This document shows positions 2,640-5,568 of a stretch of 64,000 nt of DNA, piece by piece. Source of the DNA: an uncultured Phycisphaerales bacterium (lineage in GTDB: Bacteria; Planctomycetota; Phycisphaerae; Phycisphaerales; UBA1924); the NCBI GenBank assembly GCA_937995595.1, contig CALKJW010000025.1:24264-88263 (forward strand). The letters run 5' to 3'. How positions within the stretch are numbered: position 1 is the stretch's first letter; the number at the start of each line of letters is the position of its first letter. The translations under genes and the position numbers were made by a program. The notes beneath the pieces were generated by a model that did not search any database, was not told the origin of the DNA, and was given only the letters and a program-made list of their open reading frames with translations.

Positions 2640-2648
2640 ATAACCCGC

Positions 2649-2678
2649 TTGACAATCAGGCGGGGGGGGGGGTAGTCT
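2649..2678 (+). promoter_or_regulatory. Candidate promoter with G11 tract in spacer
   Basis: TTGACA (2649-2654), 18-bp spacer ATCAGGC-G11, TAGTCT (2673-2678); GTG start at 2685. Confidence 0.45.
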
Positions 2679-2684
2679 GCCCTC

Positions 2685-3839
2685 GTGCGATTCGGGCGGA
2701 AGTATCTTTCATGGATGTCAGGCGCATCGGCCTTATGCGTGCTGATCGCCTGTGTGCGCGCGCAATCGCTGCCGGACGAACGGGTCATCCGAGAAGCTGT
2801 GCAGACCGCGTGGGATGCCGCTGCGCGGTTCCCCGACCTGGAGAGCGTCTCGATCTCATGGAGGGTCGAAGATCGCACGATCGGGACGCCGGAGGAGTGG
2901 TCGCGGCTGATTGCCGAGGTCCCCGGTCATCCAGATCATCCTGACCGCTGGACGCTGGAGATATACAAGAGGCGTCGGGCGGGCGATTTTCTTACGGACT
3001 CGGTGAGATTCCGCCTGCAGGCCCGCTCGATCGACTTCTGGCGGTTGGGGAGTGATCTTCGACCGGCGAACCTTCCCGACGTGGAGTTGTATAACGACCG
3101 CGCCAGCGCCCGGGATGCCGCATGGAGCCTGACCAACCACAGCCTGAGGGTGACCGGGTCGGAAGGCCCGAGCCAACCCGGCGACCACCATGGTCAGAGT
3201 TTTCGCAGCGCGTTCTACGACATCAGCCACATGCTTGGCGGCGGTGTCTGGTTGCGAGCGATTCATCCATTCGAGGCCGACCCGGTGATCGTCCGCGGCG
3301 ATCGCTGGGAGCATCGCGTCTACAGGCTGGAGGGATCAACGCGCCGGTATGGGCTTGTCCGCGAAGGCCGCTGGGACGCCGAACTCGGCCAGCCGATCAC
3401 CGAGACTGGCTTTTCCCTCGTCGGACCCGACCTGTCGATCAGGGGCACGACGGTGAAGTACCTCGACCAGCGTATTGACCCTGTGCTTGGTCGCCTGGTT
3501 GCACATAGGGTAGAGCATGTCGATCCGGATGGCATGCTCTCCAAGGTCTTGGTTTATCTCGGCGCTCGCGCGGAGCCGAAGGGATCGTTGGATGCCGCAA
3601 TCAAGGTTCCATCGGCAGGGGCGAGCGACCCCTGGCGGGGCACGCCAACATACACGATGGTCGTGGACGAGCGCGCGGGCCAGACACTCGCGCGGCCTGT
3701 TGACGGACCAACGGTCGTTCATCCACCGATGACAGACCATAGCCTCGCCGGCTGGCTGAGGATCGCCGGGTGGTTGGTTGCCGGATCGCTCGCCGTCGCA
3801 CTCGGCACGCTGATCGTCCATCGCAGATGGGGTCACTAA
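2685..3839 (+). CDS. Exported/membrane-anchored hypothetical protein
   Basis: N-terminal signal-like MRFGRKYLSWMSGASALCVLIACVRAQS; C-terminal TM segment AGWLRIAGWLVAGSLAVALGTLIV followed by HRRWGH. Confidence 0.65.
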   Translation: MRFGRKYLSWMSGASALCVLIACVRAQSLPDERVIREAVQTAWDAAARFPDLESVSISWRVEDRTIGTPEEWSRLIAEVPGHPDHPDRWTLEIYKRRRAGDFLTDSVRFRLQARSIDFWRLGSDLRPANLPDVELYNDRASARDAAWSLTNHSLRVTGSEGPSQPGDHHGQSFRSAFYDISHMLGGGVWLRAIHPFEADPVIVRGDRWEHRVYRLEGSTRRYGLVREGRWDAELGQPITETGFSLVGPDLSIRGTTVKYLDQRIDPVLGRLVAHRVEHVDPDGMLSKVLVYLGARAEPKGSLDAAIKVPSAGASDPWRGTPTYTMVVDERAGQTLARPVDGPTVVHPPMTDHSLAGWLRIAGWLVAGSLAVALGTLIVHRRWGH

Positions 3840-3862: not shown

Positions 3863-4306
3863 ATGGCAAAGAACTTGTGTTCGGATCGACCGTCTCAGTC
3901 TGTTTGGGCCGCCCTTGCCATTGGACTCACTCTGCCGGTTTCCACAGTTCTGGCAACCGCCGGATACTGCTGGCATCTCAACCCGGGCACGACGGTTTGT
4001 CTTGTCGGACCGTTGCATGCGTGCAGGGCTGGCAGCGCTCCGAATCAGGTTGCCTGGCAGTGCATTGATGAGACCGAGCCCGGGCCATCCATTGTGTACA
4101 CCGTGACTTCGCCGCCGCCCGAGGGTCAGCAAGGGCGCTCATCCACCTCAGAGTCGAGTCATCCTTGCTGGTACAAGAGGTTCCGCTGTGGGAACATCCT
4201 CGGCGAACCGCCGGAAGCCTTGTGTGTGCACGTCAGCACGACGTTTACCGTCCACACGTCGATCGTGCCGAACCCGGCCGGTGTCTTGTGCCCTGCTCTC
4301 CCATGA
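3863..4306 (+). CDS. Small Cys-rich exported hypothetical protein
   Basis: MAKNLCSDRPSQSVWAALAIGLTLPVSTVLATAGYCW..., several Cys in about 110 predicted mature residues; ATGA overlap with next gene. Confidence 0.6.
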   Translation: MAKNLCSDRPSQSVWAALAIGLTLPVSTVLATAGYCWHLNPGTTVCLVGPLHACRAGSAPNQVAWQCIDETEPGPSIVYTVTSPPPEGQQGRSSTSESSHPCWYKRFRCGNILGEPPEALCVHVSTTFTVHTSIVPNPAGVLCPALP

Positions 4307-5568
4307 CGGCACCGGACGTTCCAACTGTGCAATCGTCTGCATCGCCGACGTTGACACGGCGCACGGGGCGACTTGTGCTCTCCGCCGCGTTTTCGTGCAT
4401 GGGTCTCGCGGGCGCGTCGAAGTTTGTGGATGCCGGCGCGTTCAGCGTCCGGCTTGAGTCACTCTACGGCGTCCCGGTCTTTGCGGCCGCGATGTTGGCC
4501 CTGCTCATCCCCGCCGCCGAGGTGGTCCTCTTCGGACTCTGGTTTGCCCGCATCGGACGCGGCGCCTGCGTAGTCGGACTTGTCGGCTTGCTCGTGGGCT
4601 TCGTGGTCTTCTGGATCATCGTCACTTCGCGACAACTTCCCGCCGACTGCGGCTGCATCGGCATTCTCGAACAGTTCCTCCGAACCAAGAAGACGGCGGT
4701 GGAGGGTCTGCTCGTATCGGTCTCGCTGCTCGCCATTGCGGTCGTGGCCGGCCTTGTCGCGTTCCCTCACTTTCGGAATGGCCCGCGGGCTCTGGCGCTC
4801 TCGGCCGGGGCCGCCTCCCGCGGATTCACACTGCTCGAGACACTCCTGGCTATCTCGATCACCGCGATCCTCCTCGCGCTGCTGTTTCCGAGCCTGGGCG
4901 CGTTCCGAGATTCCGCTCGCACGGCAAAGTCCCTCTCCAACATCCGCTCGCACGCTTCGATCATCTCGATCTACACCATCGACTGGCGCGACACCTACCC
5001 GTACTTCACGTACCCGCAGGCCACGCGCACCGTCCTCCGCGCCGAACAGGCGGGCGTCGTCGTGGAAGTTCCGTACTTCTGGGCGTTCCAGTACTGGAAC
5101 GTGGCGCTGGCCGACTCCTACTACGACGGCCAGCCCTTCCACGACTCGTTCTATCCGCCCACCTACCCGGACGGGCTTGGCACGCGTGAATGGAGGTTCG
5201 GCCCCACGCCGTATCACTACGCCTGCTCGTTCCTGGCAAGGCCCGAGTTCTGGAACCCCGCGAGACGGACCTATCAGAAAGACCAACTGGGTCCGAACTC
5301 CGCGCAGGACGTGGTCTTTCCGGCGGCCAAAGCCCTGCTCACGGCGTCGTACCCGGTCGCGCCGCTCCCCGGCAACATCGTGAGTTTCGAGATGTCGAAC
5401 CCGCTGGCCATCGGTTTCGTCGATGGGTCCGCCGCTAACGTGCCCGCGAACCGTTGCACACCCGGCTACCCCAACGGCGACGGTTCGTTCAACTTCCCCA
5501 TGCACCAGAACGCCTGGCCGCCAGGACTGCACACCATCGATGGTGCCCGCGGGCGCGATCTGCGATGA
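4303..5568 (+). CDS. MauE/DoxX-like membrane protein fused to type IV prepilin-like domain
   Basis: N-terminal multi-TM region with DCGCIG motif; internal prepilin signal SRGFTLLETLLAISITAILLALLFPSL at residues 172 onward; ATGA overlap at 4303-4306. Confidence 0.7.
   Translation: MTAPDVPTVQSSASPTLTRRTGRLVLSAAFSCMGLAGASKFVDAGAFSVRLESLYGVPVFAAAMLALLIPAAEVVLFGLWFARIGRGACVVGLVGLLVGFVVFWIIVTSRQLPADCGCIGILEQFLRTKKTAVEGLLVSVSLLAIAVVAGLVAFPHFRNGPRALALSAGAASRGFTLLETLLAISITAILLALLFPSLGAFRDSARTAKSLSNIRSHASIISIYTIDWRDTYPYFTYPQATRTVLRAEQAGVVVEVPYFWAFQYWNVALADSYYDGQPFHDSFYPPTYPDGLGTREWRFGPTPYHYACSFLARPEFWNPARRTYQKDQLGPNSAQDVVFPAAKALLTASYPVAPLPGNIVSFEMSNPLAIGFVDGSAANVPANRCTPGYPNGDGSFNFPMHQNAWPPGLHTIDGARGRDLR

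Follow-up and report, generated by a model that had tools for sequence, protein, structure and literature searches.

The window analysed in this study is a 64-kb stretch of DNA from an uncultured Phycisphaerales bacterium, whose draft genome comprises 3.1 Mb on 55 contigs. As listed in Table 1, a candidate promoter with a G11 tract in its spacer lies directly in front of three genes. Direct reading of the sequence confirmed that the layout given in a preliminary description (TTGACA, ATCAGGC plus G11, TAGTCT, and a GTG start codon at 2685) is exact, with the six bases GCCCTC between TAGTCT and the GTG. No other G or C run in the window reaches 10 residues, and TTGAC-N-TANNNT with a 16-19-nt spacer matches at just one further position there. 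A strict sigma-70 consensus scan of the window did not call the site, because TAGTCT fits TATAAT at three positions only. Among the poly-G sites tallied in this study, TTGACA is the -35 in 92 of 113, and TAGTCT is the most frequent -10. With its 11 residues, the tract is a homopolymer of at least 8 between -35 and -10, as in promoters of the porA and tp0126 type.

Table 1. Promoter elements and operon genes in the window
Feature	Position	Strand	Basis or remark
-35 hexamer TTGACA	2649..2654	+	read from sequence
Spacer, 18 nt: ATCAGGC then G11 (tract 2662-2672)	2655..2672	+	read from sequence
-10 hexamer TAGTCT	2673..2678	+	read from sequence
384-aa ORF, uncharacterised multigene family	2685..3839	+	GTG at +6 after -10, predicted leaderless
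147-aa Cys-rich secreted-type ORF, second operon gene	3863..4306	+	sequence reading
421-aa MauE + prepilin N-terminal-motif fusion, third gene	4303..5568	+	PF07291, PF07963

The product of the 384-aa ORF has a signal-peptide-like segment at the N-terminus and a membrane-anchor-like segment at the C-terminus. It has no match in Pfam or NCBIfam, and its structure model (mean pLDDT 35) is too poor for use. A family search with the 147-aa Cys-rich ORF also gave no match. The 421-aa fusion passes both curated cut-offs, with 43.3 bits for PF07291 (cut-off 27) and 22.8 bits for PF07963 (cut-off 21.2). The stop codon of the Cys-rich gene and the start codon of the MauE-prepilin gene overlap as ATGA, and a relative of the window's prepilin gene is present near the first gene at nearly every homologous locus examined. 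The proposed Cys-rich/MauE-prepilin operon is plausible on these grounds.

Is the G11 spacer a singular case? I performed pattern searches in a comparison set with one genome per species, using the reversed pattern as the control. TTGAC-N-polyG-TANNNT was found four times in the own genome (control 0) and 44 times in 61 relatives (control 2). The search of 163 genomes from the same bacterial family gave about 97 matches to TTGAC-N-G8+-TANNNT and none for the control; spacers from 7 to 37 nt were allowed, and nearly all matches have a spacer of 10-22 nt. The pattern is present across the phylum but is rarer than in the family. Poly-C spacers are also enriched (27 against 3 in the control), and so are G tracts without contact to the -10, in a listing that repeats some of the adjacent sites. 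These results clearly indicate that the poly-G promoter is a recurrent architecture and not a product of chance.

Of the other poly-G sites in the own genome, one on contig C8 (position 83457) precedes a 90-aa Cys-rich secreted-type protein, one on contig C9 (105300) precedes a 345-aa secreted-type protein, and one on contig C31 (62731) is at a contig end; a sister tract of poly-C is on contig C44. At C10:87222 of the same genome, a G11 separates a TACACT -10-like motif from the start codon, where it is likely to be part of a 5' leader, not a spacer. Ten poly-G promoters were seen in the single closed chromosome of Phycisphaeraceae H1_PLA1 (CP054186). Four of them form two pairs, each of identical sequence and with a distance of about 2.5 kb between the partners, and one pair precedes prepilin-type genes. 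Outside the planctomycetes, TTGACA-N-G8-10-TAGTCT is common before lipoprotein-like genes of uncultured spirochaetes (Spirochaetaceae, Spirochaetales, and Treponema sp.), where each genome has 5-14 matches and the controls have none.

The long tracts are a distinct class of their own. In a manual tally of G runs of four and above before the -10, the distribution is bimodal, with a second mode at 8 or more: twelve runs of 4, then 2, 1, and 1 of 5, 6, and 7 residues, then 3, 5, 2, and 2 of 8 to 11, and four of at least 14. These lengths come from draft assemblies, which may misstate homopolymers. A run of 75 G in the own genome (C15:22412-22486) and runs of 86 C and 36 G in one relative are likely assembly artefacts. 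At 104 sites in the bacterial family, the mean tract length is 10.8 (sd 2.5, range 7 to 18). The longer the tract, the shorter is the rest of the spacer (rho -0.38, with a p value of 6e-5 that is nominal because the sites are phylogenetically non-independent), and the variance of the total spacer is 8.4, compared with 14.3 after shuffling. Total spacing thus seems to be held around the sigma-70 optimum by compensation between tract and remainder, as far as non-independent sites can tell, and an assembled spacer of 16-18 nt is seen in only 38% of the sites. Such compensation is what would be expected of a slipping spacer under selection towards a spacing near 17. In the own genome, a 16-nt spacer is seen in 26 of 74 TTGAC..TANNNT matches and a 17-nt spacer in 16, and most of these lack G runs; the total of 74 is not above the control, and the length peak alone stands out.

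Direct differences in tract length were also found. Two loci with flanks that agree at 59 of 60 positions upstream and at all 60 downstream have G12 and G9, respectively. Mis-binning is possible for this pair, because the bins were assigned to different genera, yet both natural length variants exist regardless. At three loci of sister species that share exactly the same core promoter, the tracts are 9, 9, and 11 long. A further candidate pair, TTGACAAGC-Gn-TAACTT with 9 and 13 G in two genomes, was rejected as orthologous since the flanks are dissimilar.

The window's first gene offers a second view, through its homologues. A profile built from nine homologues of the 384-aa protein was searched in the 163 genomes, and about 140 places were found in 66 of them, with a maximum of eight in one genome. 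Of 71 upstream regions of these genes, a rule that asks for G7+ or C7+ within TTGAC..TANNNT selected 30, and several further repeat spacers with TTGCC or other -35 forms were recognised by eye. The own-genome paralogue has a poly-C spacer (CTTGCCCCCCCACCCCCCCCCCCTGTACACT), as have both members examined in another genome of the same genus. In one homologue, a (CT)n run lies in the spacer, while many homologues are without any repeat, and the position of the tract inside the spacer is variable across the protein family. Because repeats persist at homologous genes while their base, position, and length shift, the comparison points to hypermutability as the conserved property rather than G as such. 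Explanations specific to the G strand are weakened by the poly-C and CT members. One result from the same protein family counts against a switch: promoters with a repeat show no significant difference in spacer variance from those without one (Levene p 0.24). Separately, some members of this family have short repeats of an ATG-containing hexamer at the start codon.

What do these promoters control? An ORF with a signal-peptide-like start is found near the promoter at 94 of the 104 sites, compared with 10 of 36 genes of the window (Fisher p 2e-12; the calls were made by a crude hydrophobicity rule). The genes after poly-G promoters therefore seem mostly to encode surface or secreted proteins, as expected of phase-variable loci. 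The preliminary description had proposed the G11 tract as a phase-variation element in a promoter spacer. This proposal gains comparative support from the recurrence of the architecture, the long-tract class, the tract differences between near-identical loci, and the secreted products.

The poly-G stretch (poly dG.dC) could instead be a fixed element, acting through DNA stiffness or as the binding site of a regulator, with no switching at all. A case of this form was found in an alphaproteobacterial bin, WQWV01 (Alphaproteobacteria bacterium Emb289P3bin118), which has about 50 promoters of the form TTGACAAAA-N-G9-TAnnnT in 1.1 Mb, with spacers mostly of 18 nt and varied genes downstream; the tract is exactly 9 in 24 of the 25 examined. 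This genome-wide fixed form, unlike the variable form in the bacterial family, warns that a poly-G spacer alone is no proof of switching. Tracts outside the family, mostly from spirochaetes, are likewise narrow in length (8-10, sd 0.65), and a poly-C spacer is the same duplex seen from the opposite strand. Within the family, however, the tracts span 7 to 18 residues and shift in position, and a homologue with a CT repeat and many repeat-free homologues do not suit a fixed element. I regard this explanation as unlikely, though it is the strongest of the rivals.

It is less probable still that the promoter and its slippage are real while the slippage is neutral or nearly so, with expression set elsewhere or dominated by read-through from upstream. 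The upstream neighbour is a transketolase gene that ends at 2608. Its stop codon is only 76 nt away from the GTG, and a scan gave no terminator-like site in this interval. Read-through from transketolase could soften an ON/OFF switch in any case. A neutral tract, however, would not be expected to be kept in a long class at secreted-protein genes with its spacing compensated.

The transcript from GTG 2685 had been proposed to be leaderless, and comparison with the homologues is in keeping with this prediction. A -10 could be assigned in 50 promoters of homologues; here the earliest start codon in frame lies at +6 in 14 cases and at +7 in nine. At the 104 sites, the start lies at 5-7 nt in 12 cases and at 8-10 nt in none. 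With a peak of start codons at 6-7 nt past the -10, a leaderless start is apparently a trait of the family, and the GTG of the window would fit it. That no promoter exists here, or that translation starts from the in-frame ATG at 2715 of a leadered mRNA, is very improbable despite the missing call in the consensus scan, given this peak, the ATG exactly at +6 in homologues from other genera, and an N-terminus from the GTG (MRFGRKYLSW) with the basic residues that a signal peptide should have.

The G11 site is probably best explained by phase variation in which homopolymer slippage alters the promoter spacing, and I hold this view with reasonable confidence. Known systems provide the model. In Neisseria meningitidis porA, the strain studied has 11G between -35 and -10, and surface expression is high with 11G, intermediate with 10G, and low with 9G (PMC3639595). 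In Treponema pallidum, the G tract of tp0126 lies between -35 and -10 with optimal transcription at a distance of 17 nt, and the promoter G tract of tprL varies from 7 to 11 within isolates and alters promoter activity by its length (PMC7864442). In N. meningitidis opc, a poly-C tract that spans the -35 region controls transcription (PMC7864442).

For the window, a sigma-70-type promoter with a hypermutable G11 in its spacer would drive a predicted leaderless operon for an uncharacterised secreted, membrane-anchored protein, a Cys-rich protein, and a MauE-prepilin fusion. Replication slippage would add or remove G residues and shift the spacer away from its present 18 nt. Expression would be maximal with about 16-18 nt between the hexamers (G9-G11), declining with shorter or longer tracts, giving reversible and graded ON/OFF variants inside a clonal population. 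I infer all three of slippage in this population, the site where transcription starts, and an influence of tract length on transcription. The present G11 is expected to be active or near-optimal, with activity lost beyond about 16-18 nt, because of the analogy with porA, tp0126, and tprL. A mutator background through loss of MutS was ruled out by the finding of a MutS_I domain; the presence of MutS is compatible with slippage but provides no special mutator background. Somewhat better than an even chance is given to a wider view, in which the Phycisphaerales family has a multi-locus phasome. Repeated cassettes of an uncharacterised secreted-protein gene and prepilin-like genes (often MauE-linked), together with other secreted proteins, would each be controlled by a G, C, or CT spacer that slips independently of the others, often with a leaderless start, and one clone would produce many surface-protein combinations without a known animal host.

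A poly-G promoter-spacer switch, as proposed here, seems to be unreported for Planctomycetota. A literature search for Phycisphaer* with 'phase variation' found no paper combining both, and planctomycetes and intergenic tracts are not mentioned in a 2010 survey of homopolymeric tracts. In the cited literature, promoter-spacer slippage is described for host-adapted pathogens, and immune evasion is the usual explanation. If the switch is true and concentrated in Planctomycetota known mostly from environmental assemblies, at a repeated cassette of secreted and pilin-like genes, another selective force would be needed, such as phages, predators, or cell-cell interaction. The promoters of the homologous genes, which are apparently leaderless and carry G, C, CT, or no repeat, form a natural test set, and the proposed switch would give a first hint of function for this protein family, which has no Pfam or NCBIfam match.

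The window shares with porA a poly-G tract in the spacer between -35 and -10. While porA belongs to a host-adapted pathogen and its mRNA has a leader, the window has its start codon 6 nt after the -10, and the homologous promoters have G, C, or CT. Homopolymeric promoter G is likewise common to the window, tp0126, and tprL. The latter two encode spirochaete outer membrane proteins and have a ribosome-binding site after the transcription start, whereas a planctomycete operon of secreted-protein and prepilin genes, predicted to be leaderless, follows the tract here. Poly-C is found both in opc and in the family of the 384-aa protein; it lies over the -35 in opc and mostly after TTGAC or TTGCC, inside the spacer, in this family.
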